Assembly (NCBI GenBank): GCA_040902765.1
Contig: JBBDWO010000007.1
Location: 84,113 to 148,112, forward strand
Origin: Acidimicrobiia bacterium
GTDB taxonomy: Bacteria > Actinomycetota > Acidimicrobiia > Spongiisociales > UBA11373
Reading direction: 5' to 3'
Length of the DNA: 64,000 nucleotides
Positions 54,416 through 64,000 of this stretch are shown in pieces. The position numbers and the translations under genes were made by a program. Numbering within the stretch: position 1 is the first letter of the stretch; every line of letters starts with the position of its first letter. The notes under the pieces are model-generated. The model was not told where the DNA came from. It saw only the letters and a program-made list of their open reading frames with translations, and did not search any database.

Positions 54416-55420
54416 CTATCGGATTGAGTCGGGCGACGCGAAATACTCTGAATACCAGAGGCACGCGGCATCCAGGCCATCGGCGAGTTCAAACTCGGGA
54501 CTCCAGTTCAGGACGCGACGTGCCTTGCTTGCATCGAGGTACTGATCCTGGAGTTCGGCGCTTGCCCCACCTGCGACCAGGGGTTCGACGTTTTCACCGA
54601 ACGCCTCGCAGATGGCCCCATACATGCTGCGCACGCTGAGCGGGGTTTCGGTGCTGAAGTTGAATGCCTCTCCTGCGAGATCATGGTTGGCCGTGATCGC
54701 TGCGGCTGTCGAGAGGTAGCCGTTGACCACATCGGCGACGTAGATGTAGTCGCGTAGCGGTGTTCCATCTGATCGTAGGACCGGGGACTCCCCAGCAATC
54801 AGCGACTTGAAGGTACCGGGTACCAGCCGGCTCCAGTTGCGGTCACCCTCGCCGTAGACATTGCCGCACCTTGTGATTGCAATTGGGGCCCTATAGGTCC
54901 GAGCGTACGACTGGGCGATGAGATCCGTACAAGCTTTCGAGGTCTCATATGGCGCACCCGCCTGGACGGGCAGCGATTCGAGATAGGGGAGATGCGCTGT
55001 CTCACCGTAGGCTTTGTCGCTGGATGCGACGACGACTGCTGCGGCTGGCGTGATCAGGCGGCATGCATCGAGGAGGTTCCAGGTTCCGAGAACATTCGTA
55101 CGGTATGTGCTGACGGGATCTCGGAGTGCCGGCCCTACCAGGGTCTGAGCTCCCAGATGGAAGACGATATCGGGCATGAAACCGCCGAGCGCGCGCCTTA
55201 CGTCGTCGTCGTTCTCGAGGATTCCGGAGTAGACAGTGCACGAGCGGTCGATGCCGGTGCGATAGAACTCAGAGTTGGGATCGATATCTGGAACCAATGC
55301 AGCGACCTCGCTACCCAGTGACAACAACTCGCGCGTGAGGTGGTGACCGATCAACCCGGTCGCACCGGTTACCAGGACGCGTTGGGATCCCCACTTCATG
55401 GACTTACGCGTATCAGTCAC
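54416..55420 (-). CDS. rfbG: CDP-glucose 4,6-dehydratase
   Basis: 334 residues from GTG 55420, overlapping rfbF by 8 bases; an ATG at 55399 is the alternative. RVLVTGATGLIGHHLTRELL binds NAD. HLGAQTLVGPALRDPVSTYR, VVASSDKAYGE and YETSKACTDLIAQSYARTY are the RfbG hallmarks, with SSDKAYG distinguishing it from GDP- and dTDP-specific dehydratases. It converts CDP-glucose to CDP-4-keto-6-deoxyglucose, the substrate of RfbH. Last gene of the rfb/transketolase operon. Confidence 0.9.
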   Translation of the reverse strand: MTDTRKSMKWGSQRVLVTGATGLIGHHLTRELLSLGSEVAALVPDIDPNSEFYRTGIDRSCTVYSGILENDDDVRRALGGFMPDIVFHLGAQTLVGPALRDPVSTYRTNVLGTWNLLDACRLITPAAAVVVASSDKAYGETAHLPYLESLPVQAGAPYETSKACTDLIAQSYARTYRAPIAITRCGNVYGEGDRNWSRLVPGTFKSLIAGESPVLRSDGTPLRDYIYVADVVNGYLSTAAAITANHDLAGEAFNFSTETPLSVRSMYGAICEAFGENVEPLVAGGASAELQDQYLDASKARRVLNWSPEFELADGLDAACLWYSEYFASPDSIR

Positions 55421-56219
55421 TCCACACCTTCCATGGAGCATCCTCCGAGTCCCAGAGCTCATTGAGTAAAGTTGCCTCTCGATAGGTGTCCATAGGTTGC
55501 CAAAAACCGTCGTGGGCAAAGGCTGTTAGCTCGCCATCCGCGGCGAGGCGCTCGAGGGGCTTTCTCTCAAGTACGGAGTCGGGTTCGAGATAGTCGAATA
55601 CCCTGTGCTCGAAGACGAAGAAGCCGACGTTGATCCAATCGTCCAGCAGCGGCTTCTCCCTGAATCCTGTGACCCGTCGTGTCTTCTCGTCGACCGTCAC
55701 CAATCCGAACCGGGACGGGGGCCGCACGATTGTGAGAGTCGCGGCTGTACGTTGCTCCTCATGGTGTGCCAAGAGAGCAGCAATATCGACGTTCGCGATG
55801 CCATCACCGTATACAACGATGGATCGCCTGTACTTCTCGGCATGGTTGCGCACCCGATGGATTCGTCCACCCGTGGGGGTGAGGTGACCGGTGTCGACAA
55901 CTGTCACGTCCCAATCGACCTCGGTGTGGTTCCCGTGAAAGTCCACCGTGTGTTGCTGCCCCAAGTGGATGGTGAAGTCGTTGTTACGCGCTTCGTAGTT
56001 GAGGAAGTAGTCCTTGATCACCTCCGCCTTGTATCCGACGCAGACTATGAAGTCAGTGATTCCATGATGCGCCAGGCCCTTCATAATGTGCCACATGGCT
56101 GGGTGCCCGCCGATGTCCACCATTGGCTTCGGCCGAAATTCGGTTTCCTCGCGCAGCCTCGTCCCGAGACCACCGGCGAGGACTATTGCCACGGTTCTCG
56201 CATCCAGGTCCTCGGTCAC
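55413..56219 (-). CDS. rfbF: Glucose-1-phosphate cytidylyltransferase
   Basis: A 268-residue protein, the family size. AIVLAGGLGTRLREETEFRP and KPMVDIGGHPAMWHIMK are the RfbF nucleotide-binding signature; VCVGYKAEVIKDYFLNY and FAHDGFWQPMDTYREATLLN are equally characteristic. It makes CDP-glucose. It overlaps rfbG by 8 bases and the transketolase C-subunit by 4 bases. Confidence 0.95.
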   Translation of the reverse strand: MTEDLDARTVAIVLAGGLGTRLREETEFRPKPMVDIGGHPAMWHIMKGLAHHGITDFIVCVGYKAEVIKDYFLNYEARNNDFTIHLGQQHTVDFHGNHTEVDWDVTVVDTGHLTPTGGRIHRVRNHAEKYRRSIVVYGDGIANVDIAALLAHHEEQRTAATLTIVRPPSRFGLVTVDEKTRRVTGFREKPLLDDWINVGFFVFEHRVFDYLEPDSVLERKPLERLAADGELTAFAHDGFWQPMDTYREATLLNELWDSEDAPWKVWSD

Positions 56220-57181
56220 TGATACTCCTCTGCGGATGGCTTGTTTCGTGCCGTGCTTGAGGCGATCGCGCTGGTGATTCTGCGGTGGATCGCGGTGGAA
56301 TCCAAGCCATGGGCTCTGCGGAGATAATCTTGTGAGCCGATCGCCTTGAGGCGTGTGTCTTCAAAACCCAGCCGCAGGACGCGCATACACCGATCAGCGT
56401 CGGAAAGGCTCTCCAGCACTGCGCTGCCGAGACCCCCCACCCTGGAGTGTTCCTCGACCGTGACGATGAGTTCCGCCGCGGGCAGGGCTTCGTCCCACCA
56501 CTCGGGGGCCACCGGCAGACTGTGAACGCTCCAGACTGTGCTCAACACACCTTGCTCAGCGAGCGCATCAGCAGCGGTCAGGCACTCAGCTGCGATTGGG
56601 CCTGATGCCAGGAGGGCAACTTTGCCCCCAGATCCGCCAATCTCACGCGGCCAGCCAAAGCGAATCATCGAGTGCGGCCGATCGCGGCCAAGGATAGGCT
56701 CACCGGACTTCCCGAGCCGCAGATACGAAGGGCGGGGATCCGAAATGAGCATCGCCAACAGCGAGGCGGTCTCGGTTGGATCGCATGGGATCACGGTGCG
56801 CAGGCCCGGCAGACAGCGCATGATCCCGATATCCTCCACCGCGAAGTGCGTGTAACCGAGGGCCCCGTATGAGACGCCTCCCCCAACGGCGACGATCGTC
56901 ACGGGGAGATCGTGGTAGCAAACGTCGTTGCGCACCTGTTCCAGGCACCGCAGGGTCGGGAAGTTGGCGATCGAATAGACAAACGGGAGGTAGCCGGAAT
57001 CTGCCAGGCCGGCGGCGATGCCCATCATCGACTGCTCCGACACGCCCGCGTTGACAAAGCGATCGGGGAATCGTTGCGCGAAAGGCTCGACGACTCCAAA
57101 CCCTAAGTCTCCGATGACCAGGAAGATTCGGTCGTCGGCTGCGGCCGCATCGGTCAGTGACTCAATGAACGTCGTTCTCAT
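56216..57181 (-). CDS. Transketolase, C-terminal subunit (split)
   Basis: 321 residues from ATG 57181, which overlaps the N-subunit stop. This is the pyrimidine-binding and C-terminal part of transketolase/DXS-type enzymes: GVSEQSMMGIAAGLADSG (with the E that activates TPP) and GALGYTHFAVEDIGIMRCL. The C-terminal domain carries TVEEHSRVGGLGSAV. With the N-subunit it would form a TPP enzyme that moves two-carbon ketol units. It is translated with rfbF (4-base overlap). Confidence 0.9.
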   Translation of the reverse strand: MRTTFIESLTDAAAADDRIFLVIGDLGFGVVEPFAQRFPDRFVNAGVSEQSMMGIAAGLADSGYLPFVYSIANFPTLRCLEQVRNDVCYHDLPVTIVAVGGGVSYGALGYTHFAVEDIGIMRCLPGLRTVIPCDPTETASLLAMLISDPRPSYLRLGKSGEPILGRDRPHSMIRFGWPREIGGSGGKVALLASGPIAAECLTAADALAEQGVLSTVWSVHSLPVAPEWWDEALPAAELIVTVEEHSRVGGLGSAVLESLSDADRCMRVLRLGFEDTRLKAIGSQDYLRRAHGLDSTAIHRRITSAIASSTARNKPSAEEYQ

Positions 57182-58050
57182 AGATTCTCGGCGCACACGA
57201 CGCGGTCCCATGCATCAGCCGGGGTGAGGCGCTCTCCGGTGACCTGCTCAATGGCATCGGCGAGGGGATCACCGGATAACGATCGATAGTGCCACACGAC
57301 CTGGTCTTCCATGAACGTGACACCTTTGCCCTTGGTGGTTTCGGCGACGATGCAGGTCGGAGCAGTCGTTCTTCCTGCCCGTCGGATCGCCGAAGCGATC
57401 TGACTGTGGTCATGGCCATCGATTCGAGAGGTCGACCAGCCGAACGCCTTCCACTTATCTTCGAGGGGTTCGAGCGCAATTGTGTCTTCGGTCGATCCAA
57501 GTGATTGGATCCCGTTCCTGTCGATCAGGACGATGACACTCGACAACTGATGGTGGGAAGCGAACAGTGCCGCTTCCCATACCGAGCCCTCGTCCAACTC
57601 CCCGTCCGACAGGACGCAGAAGGCTCGTCGATCGCTGCCTTGCCTCTTCGCAGCGAGGGCGGTTCCGACCGCAAACGGCAGGCCGTGGCCCAGGGAACCG
57701 GTGGAGAAGTCGACTCCTGGGACCCCACTGCGCGTGACATGACCAGCCAACATCGACCCATCTTTGCAGTACTCCCGCAGTCGCTTGGTCTCGAAGTACC
57801 CGGAGATCCCCAGACAGGCAAGGACGGCAGCCGATGCATGTCCTTTGGAGACGACGACCCGATCGCGATCCGGCCAATCGGGACGTGTTGGATCGATCCT
57901 CGCTCCGCCTGAGTAGAGCACGGCGAGGATGTCGGCAACGGACATGCTGGATCCCACATGTGCCGCTTGCGCCTCTGCAGTCATCAGCACGATCGCCGTT
58001 CTCATGGCTCGCGCCAATTCCTTGGATGACCCTCGTGAGCGAGTCGGCAT
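57178..58050 (-). CDS. Transketolase, N-terminal subunit (split)
   Basis: A 290-residue protein. The TPP-diphosphate/Mg region is CVLSDGELDEGSVWEAALFA, through to IDRNGIQSLGST. HVGSSMSVADILAVLY and VVSKGHASAAVLACL supply other transketolase signatures, and STGSLGHGLPFAVGTAL is typical. Full-length transketolases are about 660 residues; here the two halves are separate overlapping genes, as in transketolase-like enzymes of secondary and polysaccharide pathways. It follows the GNAT-aminotransferase gene by a few bases. Confidence 0.9.
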   Translation of the reverse strand: MPTRSRGSSKELARAMRTAIVLMTAEAQAAHVGSSMSVADILAVLYSGGARIDPTRPDWPDRDRVVVSKGHASAAVLACLGISGYFETKRLREYCKDGSMLAGHVTRSGVPGVDFSTGSLGHGLPFAVGTALAAKRQGSDRRAFCVLSDGELDEGSVWEAALFASHHQLSSVIVLIDRNGIQSLGSTEDTIALEPLEDKWKAFGWSTSRIDGHDHSQIASAIRRAGRTTAPTCIVAETTKGKGVTFMEDQVVWHYRSLSGDPLADAIEQVTGERLTPADAWDRVVCAENL

Positions 58051-58054
58051 CGAT

Positions 58055-59866
58055 CTAGCCGGGACTGCCGAGGCTGGCGCGGAGAGCAGTTGCTACCCTC
58101 TCCAGATCTGGCCGTCTCAGCCTGACGCCACTGGGTAGGTTGACCGATCTCGCGGCCACTTGCTGGGCGGTCTGGCGTCTGCCCGGCCCGCCGTCATCCC
58201 CCGACCAGATCGTGAACGAGCTGATCTGGGGGAAGACGGGCCGCGTGTCTACGCCGTTCTGCCGCATGCGATCGGTGACCACTGCTCGTTGCTCGGTGTC
58301 TTCCACAGGCAGAGTCACGCTGGTCATCCAGTGAATGCTGCGGTCAGAATCCATCGGCTCCTGGAACCTCAACCCATCGACATCTGCCAGGAGATCTCGG
58401 TAGTAGCGAGCAATCCTTGTCTTGGCGTCGATCTGCTGCTCCGACCTCTCGAGTTGTGCCAACCCCAACGCGGCTGTCGCATTGGGCATCTTGTATTTGA
58501 CACCGAGCTGTTCAATCCAGAACGTGCCCGGTGTACGCCCGTGGTCCCAAATCTGGCGAGCGGTTGCGTAGAGATCTGCGTCGTTGGTGACTAGCATCCC
58601 GCCCTCGCCGGTGACGAGCATCTTGGCTCCCTGGAAGCTGAACGCCCCGAATTCGCCGATTCCGCCAACCGGCGAGCCTTTGTGCAACGCGCCGATCGCC
58701 GGTGCCGCGTCCTCGATGATGGCAAGATCATGGCGTCGGGCGACGGCCTGCAGCGCCGTCATGTCGGCCGGAACGCCATAGAGGTGCACGGGTATCATTG
58801 CCCTTGTGCGTGGCGTCACTGCCTCCTCGGCCTGTTGTGGATCTAGCGTCCATGTACGGGCGTCTATATCGACGAAGACCGGCGTCGCTCCGACGTACTC
58901 AACGGCCGATGCCGTCGCAACCCATGTGACATCCGGAACTAGGACCTCATCGCCCGGCCCCACCCCGAGGGCGAGCAGCGCCAGGTGGAGTGCGCCTGTG
59001 CAGCTCGATGTTGCGAGCGCGAACTCCACGCCTACGTAGTCGGCGAACTCCCGTTCGAATCGCGCCAGGTAGTCCGAGTGGTTGGCATTCCACCCGTAGC
59101 GGACTGCATCTGAGGTGTACGTCGTCTCTCGGTGGCCGATGGAGGGACCAGCGGTGAGCACCATCTCACCAGCTGTCGGTTGATCGTCCAAGTGCTTTCC
59201 CATCGTGATAAATTCATCGGAGACTTGTTCATCGGACGCTGCAGCGACCAGACTCACTCGGCCGTCTCCTTCGTCGCGCCTCGTCAACGGCGTGCGCTCC
59301 CACTCTTCGTAGCCGATCTTCTCATAGAACGCCACCGCCTTGGAGTTAGAGGCGAGAACCCTTAGTACGACTCTGAGAGCCCCGAGTTGTTCGTAGGCCC
59401 AGTTCTCGAGGGCAAGCGTTGCGGAGGACATCGCCCCCTTGACACCCGGCCTGCCCCTCAGGACGTTGTCCAATTCCACGGTGCAGTCCAAGTCTTCACG
59501 CAGCACGAGACCAATGTGGCCGAGTCGTGACGAGGCCGAGTCGGTGATCAAGAACAGGAGACGGTCGGCATTCGCCAGCACGGCCTTCCTGAGCCACGAT
59601 TCAGTTCCCTCGGCGGTCACTTCGAATCGGGTCGGATACGCATACTGATGGGCGGCACGCCACTGCCCGAATTCCGCCACGAGGTCCCCGGATACGGTGC
59701 CTTCGGAAACCGGCAACAGCCGCAGTCCCAACCCCTCGACGACGACTTCGGCGGGAGTGCGGTGGCTGATCTTCATCCATTCGAATTCGCGACGGGCGTA
59801 CTCGATGAAGTGGTACGGACGAAGTGCGCTGGTTTCCTTGCCGGTACGCTTGCCTTTGAGGGCCAT
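58055..59866 (-). CDS. Fusion of GNAT acyltransferase and DegT-family sugar aminotransferase
   Basis: A 603-residue protein. Residues about 44-210 form a GNAT fold (GHIGLVLREDLDCTVELDN, then VVLRVLASNSKAVAFYEKIG). Residues about 245-603 are a DegT/DnrJ/EryC1/StrS aminotransferase: EFALATSSCTGALHLALLA, VPDVTWVATASAVEYVGATP, IIEDAAPAIGALHKG and K415 in SFQGAKMLVTGEGG. The aminotransferase resembles perosamine synthetase-type enzymes acting at C4. The GNAT part could N-acylate the same amino group. It heads the transketolase/rfbF/rfbG operon. Confidence 0.88.
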   Translation of the reverse strand: MALKGKRTGKETSALRPYHFIEYARREFEWMKISHRTPAEVVVEGLGLRLLPVSEGTVSGDLVAEFGQWRAAHQYAYPTRFEVTAEGTESWLRKAVLANADRLLFLITDSASSRLGHIGLVLREDLDCTVELDNVLRGRPGVKGAMSSATLALENWAYEQLGALRVVLRVLASNSKAVAFYEKIGYEEWERTPLTRRDEGDGRVSLVAAASDEQVSDEFITMGKHLDDQPTAGEMVLTAGPSIGHRETTYTSDAVRYGWNANHSDYLARFEREFADYVGVEFALATSSCTGALHLALLALGVGPGDEVLVPDVTWVATASAVEYVGATPVFVDIDARTWTLDPQQAEEAVTPRTRAMIPVHLYGVPADMTALQAVARRHDLAIIEDAAPAIGALHKGSPVGGIGEFGAFSFQGAKMLVTGEGGMLVTNDADLYATARQIWDHGRTPGTFWIEQLGVKYKMPNATAALGLAQLERSEQQIDAKTRIARYYRDLLADVDGLRFQEPMDSDRSIHWMTSVTLPVEDTEQRAVVTDRMRQNGVDTRPVFPQISSFTIWSGDDGGPGRRQTAQQVAARSVNLPSGVRLRRPDLERVATALRASLGSPG

Positions 59867-60019
59867 TACGGGGTGCCTCGATCTCGCGGTTGGGGTGTGC
59901 CGTAAGGGTAGTGGGAGAGCGGAGCGGTCGCGATTGGATCCGGCGCTGCACGAACCTGGATCAGATGATCGATCCCGTATCCCGGCTAAGTTGGTCGCGG
60001 CGTCGGCGAGGGATCCGAA

Positions 60020-61039
60020 GTGGCACTGATTACCGTCGTGATTCCGATCTACAACGAGGTAGGGACGCTCTCGGAGCTACTGCGCCGTCTGAACCTGGTG
60101 AGGGAGGGTCTGAGCGACCACGAGTTGGAGCTCGTGTTCGTCGACAATGCCTCGGACGACGGATCTGGCGAAGAGATCGCGCGCCTGGCCGCCTCCGACC
60201 CCTCGATCCGGTACGTGCGATTCAGCCGCAACTTCGGACCATCTGTCGAGGCATCTATGACGGCGGGATTCAGAGTTGCTCGTGGGGATGCGGTAGTCGT
60301 GCTCTACAGCGACCTTCAGGATCCACCCGAACTCATCCCTGCGATGGTCGAAGCGTGGGAGCAGGGAGCCGACGTCGCGTATGGCCGCCAGCGAAGGCGC
60401 CAAGGGGAGTCGCGCACTCGCCGGACCGCGATCCGTGTGTTCTACCGACTCATGACGCGAACGTCGGATTCACCGATGCATACGGACTCGGGAGATTTCA
60501 GGCTGGTGTCCCGGCGGGTCTGTATGGCGCTCCTGGCAATGCCGGAACGTGTGCGCTACACCCGCGGATTGATTTCATGGCTGGGGTTTCGCCAGGTCCC
60601 CATCGAATACGACCGCCAACCTCGCACGGCGGGGCGGAGCAAGGCAAATTTCGCCGCGATTTCTCGGACTGCTCTCAACGCGATCACTTCCTTTTCTCTA
60701 CGTCCCCTGCAACTACTCACAGCGGCCGGATTCGCTATCGCAGCTGCGGCGTCCGTGGGGGCCCTGGCATACTTCGTATTGTTCATCATCGGTCGCACTC
60801 TTCCCGGCGTGACAACGCTGGCGCTGCTGTTGTTGTTCTCCATTGGAGTCAACATGGCCGCGGTTGGATTGATTGGAGAGTATGTAGGGCGGATCTACAT
60901 GGAGGTCAAGGCTCGGCCGCTCTACGTGATCGACGAGGAGTCAAGTCACTACCGAGTTGAATCGGATACCGGCTTGGGCTTCTCTTTCGACCACCTAGGA
61001 GATGAACCGCCCGGGGGATTCGAAGAACTCCCGGATTGA
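60020..61039 (+). CDS. GT2 polyprenyl-phosphate glycosyltransferase (ArnC/GtrB-like)
   Basis: A 339-residue protein starting at [31 protein letters not shown] and [13 protein letters not shown] (DxD-equivalent) are the GtrB/DPM1-type GT2 core, and [19 protein letters not shown] is the typical segment before two C-terminal membrane helices (about 228-285). Such enzymes load a sugar onto undecaprenyl phosphate for transfer outside. It is the only plus-strand gene inside this minus-strand block. Its 3' end overlaps rfbH by 45 bp in the convergent sense. Confidence 0.88.
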
Positions 61040-62305
61040 ATGTGCGGCATAGTCCAGCATCTCGGTCGTGAGGCCAGGAAAGACCCCGATCCAGAACGTC
61101 TGCCGCATTACATAGTCAGTGTTCTTGAGACTTCCGACCACCCGAAACTCGACGTCTTCATAGGCCGGCTGCCGGAGGAGATTCCCACCGAAGACGAGTC
61201 GCGTCGCAATCTGCCGACTCTCCAGGAATACAAGCAGATCTCGGCGTTCGAATCCCACGCCGGGGTCGACCGACATGGGAAACCCGAACCAGTTCGGTTC
61301 GGAGTTCGGTGTTGGGTCGACCAGGTGCAGCCCGGGGATGTCCTCGAGGTTCCTTCGCAGGACTGCCCAGTTCGATTTTCGCCGCTTGATGAACGAGTCG
61401 AGCTTGTCGAGCTGGGTGCAGCCGATGGCTGCCTGCATGTCTGTCGCTTTCAGGTTGTAGCCGATGTCGGAGTAGATGTACTTGTGGTCGTAGCCATAGG
61501 GGAGGTCTCCGAGTTGCCAATCGAATCTCTTCTTGCACGTGTTGGCCTTGCCCGGTTCGCAATAGCAGTCTCGCCCCCAGTCGCGAAAGGACTCGACGAG
61601 CTTCTTGAGTCGCGGCTTGTTCGTGACCACAGCTCCACCCTCGCCTGTTGTGATGTGGTGGGCGGGGTAGAAGCTGAATGTCGCAAGATCGCCGAAGGTG
61701 CCGACGTTCTTGCCGCGAAACGTTGCTCCGAGGGCATCGCAGGCATCTTCGATCACCCAGAGGTCGTTCTGCACTGCGAGTTCGGTTACGACGTCGAGAT
61801 CGAACGGATTCCCGAGCGTGTGCGCCATCATGATCAGTTTCGTCTCTGGACCGACAGCTTCGCGCAGGAGGTCCGGATCCGCGTTCAATGTCGACGGGTC
61901 GACGTCGACCACAACGGGCCGAACACCGTGGAGAATCGCAGGGTTGATCGTTGTCGGGAACCCAAGGGCCACAGTCAATACCTCGTCGCCGGGATGAAGG
62001 CGTTTCTCCGGGAGCCTCCTGCTGGTCAGTGCAGAGAAGGCGGCGAGGTTGGCCGAAGATCCGCTGTTGACCAAGAGGGCGTGGCGAGTACCGACTCGAC
62101 TCGCGAGTTTCCTTTCGAAGCTTTTCGCAAATGGGCCTGCGGTCAGCCAGCCGTCGAGGCTCGACTCGACGAGCGCCACGATGTCGTCGGCGTCGAGGAC
62201 TTTGCCAGAGACAGGGATCGGGGTTTGGCCTGGGATGAAGGGTGTTTGCGCGAACGACTTGCTCGCATGCTCGCGCACGGCGGCGAGGATGGATTCTCGA
62301 CTCAT
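60995..62305 (-). CDS. rfbH: CDP-4-keto-6-deoxy-D-glucose 3-dehydrase (E1)
   Basis: 436 residues from ATG 62305; the open frame to 62362 adds an unlikely extension. It is an aspartate-aminotransferase fold of the DegT family with His (H216 in [14 protein letters not shown]) in place of the catalytic Lys, the defining change of the PMP-dependent 3-dehydrase. [20 protein letters not shown] holds Cys 247, 249 and 257 of the 2Fe-2S region. It removes the C3 hydroxyl of RfbG's product to give a 3,6-dideoxy-4-ketohexose. Its reductase partner (E3-type) was not found in this window. Confidence 0.93.
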
Positions 62306-62597
62306 ATTCGCGGCTTGCTGATTGAGGATGGAAGGGTATCGTACTGCTGCCCGCGCTTTCACCCGACGTGGACCGGCGTTGGCGGCAATCTCCAGTCAGG
62401 GGCGCTGACCTCCCAGATGCGATCGACGTCGGTGCCGTTCGACGCCGACCAGGCGGTGATGTCCGACGACGTGACAACGTCACCACGTCAACAAGCTGTA
62501 TTCGCCGGTACCACTTTCGCCTCGGTCCGTTCTAGGGAGGCGGCGGGGCAGCGAGGTGGGTACGATCCTCGCCGGTATGCGTCGATGAGGAGGGTGA

Positions 62598-63575
62598 ATG
62601 CCGCGGGCGCTCATCACCGGTATCACAGGACAGGACGGTTCGTACCTCGCCGAGTATCTGCTCGGCCTGGGCTACGAGGTGCATGGGACTATTCGCACCA
62701 CCACGCACGACCTCGAGGACACCCGTATCGGCCACCTGGTGACCACCGACCCCCCGCAGGTTGAGGTGCACATCACGGACCTCGGCGACTCGCACTCGCT
62801 GATGCGACTCATCGACGACACTCGGCCCGCCGAGGTGTACAACCTGGCCGCTCAGTCGCACGTTCGCGCCTCCTTCGATCAACCGGTGCACACCGGGGAC
62901 GTCACCGGTCTGGGAGCGGTGCGCTTGCTCGAAGCGATCCGCCACGCCGATCCGTCCATCCGGTTCTACCAGGCATCGAGCAGCGAGATGTTCGGCGCCG
63001 CTCCGCCCCCGCAGAACGAGGAGACGCCGTTTCACCCTCGCAGCCCGTACGCCGTCGCCAAGGTGTACGCCTATTGGGCCACGATCAATCATCGTGAGTC
63101 ATACGGTATCCACGCGTCCAACGGGATCCTGTTCAACCACGAGAGTCCCCGGCGCGGGAAGGCGTTCGTCACCCGCAAGATCACGGCAGCGATCCCCCGA
63201 CTGATGAAGGGGGAGCAGAAGAAGCTGTTGCTCGGCAACCTGGATGCCAAGCGAGATTGGGGTCATGCCCGCGACTACGTCCGTGCCATGCATCTGATGC
63301 TGCAGCATGATGAGCCACTCGATCTGGTCATCGGCACGGGTGAAGCGCACTCGGTGCGGGAGTTCCTGGACGCTGCCTTTGCCGTGGTCGACCTCGACTG
63401 GACCGATTTCGTGGAGATCGATCCCCGCTTCTACCGGCCCGCCGAGGCGGACTTCCTCCAGGCGGATCCCCTGAGGGCGAAGACGGTTCTGGGATGGTCA
63501 CCCGAAGTGACCTTCGAGGAGCTGGTTCGCGAGATGGTGCTCGCCGACCTCGCCGCCCATGGCCTCGATGCCTGA
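62598..63575 (+). CDS. gmd: GDP-mannose 4,6-dehydratase
   Basis: A 325-residue SDR enzyme. [20 protein letters not shown] is the Gmd NADP site. [28 protein letters not shown] and [20 protein letters not shown] carry the catalytic residues (T/S, E, YxxxK), and [16 protein letters not shown] is diagnostic. It makes GDP-4-keto-6-deoxymannose, precursor of GDP-fucose, GDP-rhamnose or GDP-perosamine. AGGAGGG precedes the ATG. Its upstream region and first codons are duplicated at 52888. It overlaps the next gene by 8 bases. Confidence 0.93.
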
Positions 63576-64000
63576 GGGGCTCGCCGCCGGAGCCCGCGTC
63601 GTCGTCACCGGGGGTCACGGATTCATCGGTCGGTATGTGGTCGCCGCCCTGGCCGCCGACGGATTCAGCACGGTGGCGGTGGCCCACCCGAAGGGTGATC
63701 CGGTGGATGTCCCCCACGAGTCGGCGGTCGTCGATCTCACCGATGCCCCTGCGGTCGATGCTCTCTTGGAGGGTGCCGAGGCGGTGGTGCATTTGGCGGC
63801 CCGGGCGGGCGGCGTGCAGTTCCAGGCCGAGCGTGCCGCGGAGGTGTTCCGCTCGAACCGGGAGATCACCGACACGGTCGTGTCAGGTGCCCGAAGGGCG
63901 GGTGTATCGCGCGTCTTCCTGGCGTCGTCGACGGTCGTGTACCGGTCCGCCCCAGAGCCCCTCACCGAGGATCACCCGCTCCTCAGCCTTGGAGACAATC
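63568..64000 (+). CDS. NAD(P)-dependent SDR epimerase/reductase (partial, cut by window end)
   Basis: 144 codons from ATG 63568, continuing past the window. [20 protein letters not shown] is an NAD(P) site, and [14 protein letters not shown] and [10 protein letters not shown] follow as in extended SDRs. It overlaps gmd by 8 bases, so it probably acts on GDP-4-keto-6-deoxymannose (GDP-fucose synthase or GDP-rhamnose reductase type). The YxxxK motif lies beyond the edge. Confidence 0.8.

Follow-up and report, generated by a model that had tools for sequence, protein, structure and literature searches.

Why should a transketolase (TK) split into two subunits be encoded among genes for a cytidine diphosphate (CDP)-3,6-dideoxyhexose? 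This question is raised by a 64,000-nt stretch of the Acidimicrobiia bacterium contig JBBDWO010000007.1 (positions 84,113 to 148,112; hereafter the window), which belongs to a genome of 1.99 Mb that is 97% complete (G000). An original prediction, made from the letters of the window, held that the rfbF, rfbG and rfbH products make a CDP-3,6-dideoxy-4-ketohexose, and that a TK-type enzyme would take the place of YerE, the thiamine diphosphate (ThDP) enzyme of the yersiniose A pathway. Since an altered two-part TK stands where a related operon has a branch-adding enzyme, we propose a rare sugar with a carbon branch (and an amino group) as the probable product of this operon.

The gene arrangement was examined first. 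The separate N and C subunits of a TK that had been described between an aminotransferase fusion and rfbF were confirmed as intact open reading frames (ORFs) with the corresponding Pfam domains. On the minus strand, the order of transcription is the GNAT-DegT fusion, TK-N, TK-C, rfbF, and the rfbG-like gene. TK-C shares 4 bp with each of its neighbours, ATGA with TK-N and GTGA with rfbF. A 4-base overlap had also been described on the aminotransferase side; however, the fusion stop and the TK-N start are separated there by a gap of 4 bp (TAG-ATCG-ATG). Apart from such small corrections, the earlier observation was mostly right.

No YerE or acetolactate synthase was detectable in G000, and no enzyme of the decarboxylase superfamily (TPP_enzyme_N/M/C) was found in the window. 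The earlier remark that the window has no YerE-like gene therefore extends to the whole genome, which has just two TPP_enzyme_C proteins; by sequence they resemble MenD and 2-oxoacid:ferredoxin oxidoreductase, and neither is YerE-like. A query first taken from this genome as an acetolactate synthase was rejected, as it proved to be MenD by sequence, and the YerE-like counts given below were made with the enzyme of locus L229 as the query. This locus, in a genome of another actinobacterial family (G018), runs rfbG-rfbH-GT2-GNAT/DegT fusion-YerE-like ThDP enzyme-rfbF. Its ThDP enzyme is 588 aa long with TPP_enzyme_N/M/C domains, its best solved relatives are 5AHK (an acetolactate synthase II entry) and 8RPH (a thiamine pyrophosphate-binding protein), and its gene has a 4-bp overlap with rfbF, like that of TK-C in the window. 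The identities between the two operons were 47% for rfbG, 53% for the DegT part of the fusion, and 34% for its GNAT part. Since the L229 operon otherwise matches that of the window, the TK pair stands exactly at the place of the YerE-like enzyme. When the fusion was searched against 296 actinobacterial genomes, just G000 and G018 had matches reaching beyond the DegT part. Furthermore, rfbH was carried by 21 of the 396 actinobacterial genomes searched with RfbH, and the 21 loci held the TK pair in 3 cases, a YerE-like enzyme in about 10, both in 0, and neither in the rest.

TK-N matched Pfam Transketolase_N (146 bits), and TK-C matched Transket_pyr (97 bits) and Transketolase_C (52 bits). The best PDB matches were the N-chain (6YAK, E=2e-68) and the C-chain (6YAJ, E=4e-44) of a split TK. 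These three domains, together with the Glu and His residues of the ThDP site, place the pair in the TK superfamily. Compared with the housekeeping TK of the same genome (E. coli numbering), the pair kept E411, D381, R358, H26, H66, H100, H261, and H473; H26, H66, H100, and H261 are H31, H71, H104, and H254 of TK-N, and E411 and H473 are E49 and H112 of TK-C, whose motif reads GGGxxYGxxGxTH. However, the canonical substrate site (His461, Asp469, Arg91, and the Ser385 loop), all of which the housekeeping TK keeps, was not retained in the pair: R91 was replaced by C95 in TK-N, H461 and D469 by G100 and L108 in TK-C, and the loop bearing S385 was shortened. In the E. coli TK, S385 binds phosphate and D469 is salt-bridged to R91; D469T makes room for aromatic acceptors, and mutation of D469 and S385 admits bulky non-phosphorylated acceptors (PMC5073344). 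The residue changes of the pair would suit, as an acceptor, a ring ketone without a neighbouring hydroxyl, such as a 3-deoxy-4-ketohexose.

The same pattern was seen in 95 polysaccharide-associated TKs, whose loci had been collected for their resemblance to TK-C of the window and not by these residues. E411, H26, H66, H100, and H473 were invariant in all 95 and H261 was kept in 94; H461 was Gly in all 95, R91 was kept in none, D469 was non-polar in nearly all, and the loop bearing S385 was shortened. Canonical TKs use H26, H100, H261, and H473 for hydroxylated substrates. The conservation of these four residues in nearly all members argues against a decarboxylative, YerE-like reaction, in which the pair would branch the CDP-4-keto sugar with an acyl donor such as pyruvate and leave an acetyl rather than a hydroxyacetyl branch. 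The closest characterised relatives, split TK and 1-deoxy-D-xylulose-5-phosphate synthase, point the same way. Such a reaction would be in keeping with the replacement of a YerE-like enzyme, the characterised YerE using pyruvate (PMC12247030), and with the altered His461 and S385 loop; on the whole, we consider it improbable.

The transketolase fold and the conserved ThDP-site residues could also belong to a housekeeping enzyme that chances to sit in a sugar operon. The proposal had been said to fail if the pair were the only TK of the genome; however, a full-length TK with the canonical motif lies elsewhere, on contig C20. Since this separate enzyme is present and no YerE or acetolactate synthase was detectable, the TK pair is not the housekeeping enzyme. 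The divergent substrate-site residues speak against that role as well, and so does the search of 13 family relatives, in which no member of the pair's kind above 34-36% identity was found. A housekeeping role was thus rejected as extremely improbable.

Synteny comparison with other rfbFGH loci containing a split TK had been suggested as a check, and such loci were found widely. When GTDB genomes were scanned with a TK-C alignment, at least 565 relatives were obtained; the best 80 were kept and gave 79 usable loci, among which rfbF was nearby in 20 and rfbH in 13. The divergent split TK was accompanied by rfbF and/or rfbH in at least nine phyla, as labelled in the database records (Actinomycetota, Bacillota, Bacteroidota, Acidobacteriota, Pseudomonadota, Bdellovibrionota, Elusimicrobiota, Omnitrophota, and a Liptonbacteria genome). 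The full set recurred in two phyla besides that of the window: L134 (Bacteroidota, Sediminibacterium) has the window's six genes in a single run, rfbF-rfbG-rfbH-GNAT/DegT fusion-TKN-TKC, and L139 (Omnitrophota) has rfbF-rfbG-GNAT-DegT-TKN-TKC-rfbH with GNAT and DegT unfused. The annotated plasmid pHY1 of Methylovirgula sp. HY1 carries rfbF-rfbG-oxidoreductase-rfbH-TKN-TKC. Together with the L229 swap, this recurrence gives good contextual support to the claim that a TK-type enzyme replaces YerE on the CDP-3,6-dideoxy-4-ketohexose.

Relatives of the pair are also common in polysaccharide clusters without rfbF or rfbH, beside sugar transferases, aldo-keto reductases, and methyltransferases, as might be expected if the pair left the CDP-sugar alone and made or interconverted a ketose or aldose phosphate for another enzyme of the cluster. 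However, on a TK-N plus TK-C tree of 100 loci the rfbF/rfbH label was clustered, requiring 12 changes, whereas 1000 shuffles needed about 26 on average and never fewer than 20. Moreover, a YerE-like enzyme replaces the pair in the L229 operon, and ordinary phosphorylated alpha-hydroxyaldehyde acceptors are made less likely by the loss of H461 and of the D469-R91 pair and by the shortened S385 loop (PMC5073344). We therefore regard the sugar-phosphate role as quite unlikely.

The enzymes that should supply the acceptor were also evaluated, and the claim that all three are present held for RfbF and RfbH. RfbF passed TIGR02623 (324 bits against a cut-off of 300; PDB 1TZF, E=1e-74), and RfbH passed NF011936 (666 bits against a cut-off of 423; PDB 3BCX, E=2e-157). 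When aligned to 3BCX, RfbH kept the active-site His that replaces the pyridoxal phosphate lysine (AHHIT) and the iron-sulphur cysteines (DCYC...NTC). The RfbG assignment stands as a best match: the top NCBIfam match was TIGR02622 (CDP-glucose 4,6-dehydratase) at 178 bits, below the equivalog cut-off of 278, the best PDB matches were the CDP-glucose 4,6-dehydratases 1RKX/1WVG, and the SDK and YxxxK motifs were aligned. This divergent RfbG lineage is common to L040, L041, L090, L139, L225, and L229.

The GNAT-DegT fusion, which had been treated as a mere neighbour, turned out to recur as a partner and probably acts on the branch. Its GNAT acetyltransferase spans approximately residues 65-186 and its DegT sugar aminotransferase residues 242-596, with the catalytic Lys present (Pfam). 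The same fusion occurs in L229 and L134. The DegT domains of the window, L134, L229, L139, L069, and L127 formed a clade with a support of 0.999, of which L234, as sister, was the only other member. Except in L234, a ThDP enzyme was present throughout: TK in five of the six loci and a YerE-like enzyme in L229, with L127 having both. The N-acylating partner varied, being a fused GNAT in the window, L134, and L229, a separate GNAT in L139, and an N-formyltransferase in L069 and L127. In loci without DegT, a short-chain dehydrogenase/reductase often adjoins the TK pair. No GNAT-DegT fusion was found in the viral contigs searched, and a plasmid search gave no full-length fusion.

Based on these results, a pathway can be proposed. 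By homology, RfbF would make CDP-glucose, the RfbG-like enzyme would convert it to the 4-keto-6-deoxy sugar, and RfbH would take off the 3-hydroxyl to give the CDP-3,6-dideoxy-4-ketohexose. All chemistry past RfbH we infer from sequence. In light of the operon replacement and the active-site changes, TK-N and TK-C would form a dedicated ThDP carboligase with the job of YerE, adding a two-carbon (C2) ketol (hydroxyacetyl) unit to the C4 ketone and leaving a tertiary alcohol and a ketone-bearing branch. Less firmly, the GNAT-DegT fusion would turn the branch ketone into an amine, which would then be N-acetylated. The product would be a CDP-linked N-acetylamino branched octose, used by the neighbouring glycosyltransferases for a surface glycan. 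Most simply, the branch would carry a ketone after the ThDP step, and this ketone would later be either reduced or transaminated and N-acylated; the latter sequence is already known for a ThDP-made branch in kibdelomycin/amycolose (PMC12247030, PMC10055692). That the TK pair substitutes for YerE is the best-supported reading, and we consider it likely. Since the action of the aminotransferase on the branch is less certain, we hold the two together to be only somewhat likelier true than false.

Several points weigh against this pathway. Split TKs are so far only proposed to use ketones as acceptors (PMC12247030), and both the ketol donor and C4 as the attachment carbon are likewise predictions. 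Approximately 70 of the 100 tree loci are without rfbF and rfbH. A YerE-like enzyme and the TK pair occur together near rfbH in L114 (6514-9675) and L127 (2701-10876). A search of the genome for FAD_binding_6 gave no match, so that RfbH is without a recognisable dedicated E3 reductase of the Fer2/FAD_binding_6/NAD_binding_1 type, and it possibly receives its electrons from another donor. Finally, the solved structures nearest to the DegT domain are perosamine synthetases, whose substrate ketone is at C4 of the ring, and a gene for GDP-mannose 4,6-dehydratase is found close by.

Some of these points led to narrower statements. The TK subfamily is not specific for CDP-sugars, since many members have neither rfbF nor rfbH in their loci and a second large context was seen; its specificity for rfbFGH was rejected. 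Strict mutual exclusion of TK and YerE was likewise rejected outside Actinomycetota; since L114 and L127 carry both enzymes, each may carry out a second C-C ligation or make a second branched sugar. The kinship with GDP-perosamine synthetases and the nearby GDP-mannose 4,6-dehydratase gene would fit a scheme in which the TK pair branches the CDP-sugar while the fusion works in parallel, aminating the ring 4-ketone of CDP-4-keto-6-deoxyglucose or GDP-4-keto-6-deoxymannose to give a 4-acetamido sugar. It would also fit L234, which has rfbF and no visible ThDP enzyme. However, no GDP-mannose 4,6-dehydratase was detected near L229, where rfbH-GT2 and YerE-rfbF flank the fusion, and the fusion accompanies rfbFGH and a ThDP enzyme in three phyla. 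Moreover, a ring 4-amino sugar leaves no C4 ketone for the TK, and therefore two products would share one operon. We consider such a parallel action of the fusion unlikely, if still a serious alternative, and continue to prefer its action on the TK-made branch.

The coordinates of the locus are collected in Table 1. rfbH lies upstream of the five-gene run on the same strand; since the opposite-strand GT2 gene separates them, rfbH is probably transcribed apart. A GDP-deoxyhexose branch, comprising the GDP-mannose 4,6-dehydratase gene and an NAD-epimerase-like gene, adjoins the CDP-sugar genes.

Table 1. Genes of the candidate branched-sugar locus, with positions in the window
Gene or product	Position	Strand	Remarks
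rfbG-like, CDP-glucose 4,6-dehydratase	54416..55423	minus	GTG start 55423 or ATG 55402
rfbF, glucose-1-phosphate cytidylyltransferase	55413..56219	minus	TIGR02623; PDB 1TZF
TK-C, Transket_pyr + Transketolase_C domains, divergent subfamily	56216..57181	minus	Pfam; 6YAJ C-chain
TK-N, ThDP-binding Transketolase_N domain	57178..58050	minus	Pfam; 6YAK N-chain
GNAT-DegT fusion, 603 aa	58055..59866	minus	Pfam; best PDB of DegT, perosamine synthetases 3DR7/3BN1
DPM/PgfS-like GT2 glycosyltransferase	60020..61039	plus	Pfam Glycos_transf_2; NF047588 240 bits, under cut-off
rfbH, CDP-4-keto-6-deoxy-D-glucose 3-dehydrase (E1)	60995..62362	minus	NF011936; PDB 3BCX; start earlier placed at 62305
GDP-mannose 4,6-dehydratase	62598-63575		TIGR01472 above cut-off
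NAD-epimerase-like gene	63559-64000, continuing in L246		after the GDP-mannose 4,6-dehydratase gene

The second large context of the TK subfamily is without rfbF and holds a Bac_transf initiating transferase and/or a TylF-like methyltransferase, TK-N, TK-C, and a different DegT clade (L045, L046, L047, L049, L060, L065, L071, L077, L079, L087, L098, and L105); aldo-keto reductase genes belong to it as well, and it sometimes holds a CapD-like dehydratase of about 640 aa. The TK there may branch another nucleoside diphosphate (NDP)-4-ketosugar. A frequent neighbour of about 228 aa had been taken for an IspD-like cytidylyltransferase; this was wrong, and the representative scanned was Bac_transf. 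In loci of Clostridia and Planctomycetes, the gene of an aldo-keto reductase, possibly a branch-ketone reductase, comes before the TK pair, and acyltransferase or GT1 genes are found around them (L073, L075, L082, L084, L095, L111, L113, L116, L120, and L122).

The split TK type was also observed in polysaccharide loci on Pelagibacterales (SAR11) contigs (L126, L127, L128, L131, and L136), the first four of which have rfbF or rfbH alongside. A 2019 paper reported partial transketolases of uncertain function in a SAR11 genome, within its hypervariable region (PMC6811365), and the Pelagibacterales split TKs are likely relevant to them. In IMG/VR viral contigs (L140-L214, for example L173, L178, L194, and L214), TK-N and TK-C were adjacent in 72 of 74, with rfbH too in seven, and some viral lineages had the distinct motif GRDRDYGYLGFSHWA. 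The contig of L247/L234 (G137:C78) combines an rfbF cluster with a radical SAM/SPASM protein, a C-methyltransferase, an RfbC-like epimerase, two methyltransferases, and a DegT near that of the window; it represents another uncharacterised CDP-sugar pathway with no visible ThDP enzyme.

The originality implied for TK-based branching could not be upheld, since a 2025 review records proposals that split-gene TKs add hydroxyacetyl units in miharamycin and amipurimycin (PMC12247030). It counts 13 proposed ketone-branching TKs, all from streptomycetes and none tested in vitro, and the enzymes described there for branching cell-surface sugars are YerE-like (PMC12247030). The addition of hydroxyacetyl to a keto sugar is a proposal both there and here; however, those systems make Streptomyces nucleoside antibiotics, whereas the present ones are CDP-3,6-dideoxyhexose surface-glycan loci of many phyla outside Streptomyces. 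The yersiniose A pathway has the same enzymes from CDP-glucose to CDP-3,6-dideoxy-4-ketohexose, followed by a ThDP enzyme expected to branch C4, but YerE is of the decarboxylase family and is partnered by a ketoreductase, whereas the enzyme here is a two-subunit member of the TK family with an aminotransferase-acetyltransferase. In the amycolose of kibdelomycin/amycolamicin, a deoxy keto sugar is likewise branched by a ThDP enzyme and the branch is transaminated and N-acylated; there, however, a pyruvate-using alpha-KADH2 enzyme makes a C3 branch for an antibiotic, whereas here a TK and a C4 branch of a surface glycan are expected. The Carboxydothermus hydrogenoformans TK (6YAJ/6YAK), the closest solved structure, also has separately encoded N and C chains, but it keeps THAGLTVGEDGASH where the divergent family has GGGxxYGxxGxSH. 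No report of rfbFGH together with a transketolase was found in the literature searched. Within that literature, there appears to be no precedent for a TK in surface-glycan operons of the CDP-3,6-dideoxyhexose type, for its broad distribution, for the YerE swap, for its coupling with an N-acylating aminotransferase, or for the residue signature.

Whether a TK can accept a ketone can be tested directly with this locus, since it offers a natural operon-level swap of YerE and split TK together with a residue signature and a defined acceptor, CDP-3,6-dideoxy-4-ketohexose. More broadly, we tentatively put forward, with somewhat less than even confidence, that the GGGxxYGxxGx[ST]H split TKs, which occur in lineages as different as SAR11, Bacteroidota, Clostridia, and Actinomycetota, may be a third natural ThDP route for C-branching nucleotide 4-ketosugars that is widespread in cell-surface glycans. 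They would act on CDP-3,6-dideoxy-4-ketohexoses in one clade and perhaps on other NDP-4-ketosugars in the rest, the branch then being reduced or transaminated, and this would explain the partial transketolases of SAR11. If the proposal is true, these TKs would be new enzymes for functionalised chiral tertiary alcohols, and unrecognised C-branched amino sugars would be predicted in the surface glycans of many phyla, including the abundant SAR11 of the ocean.

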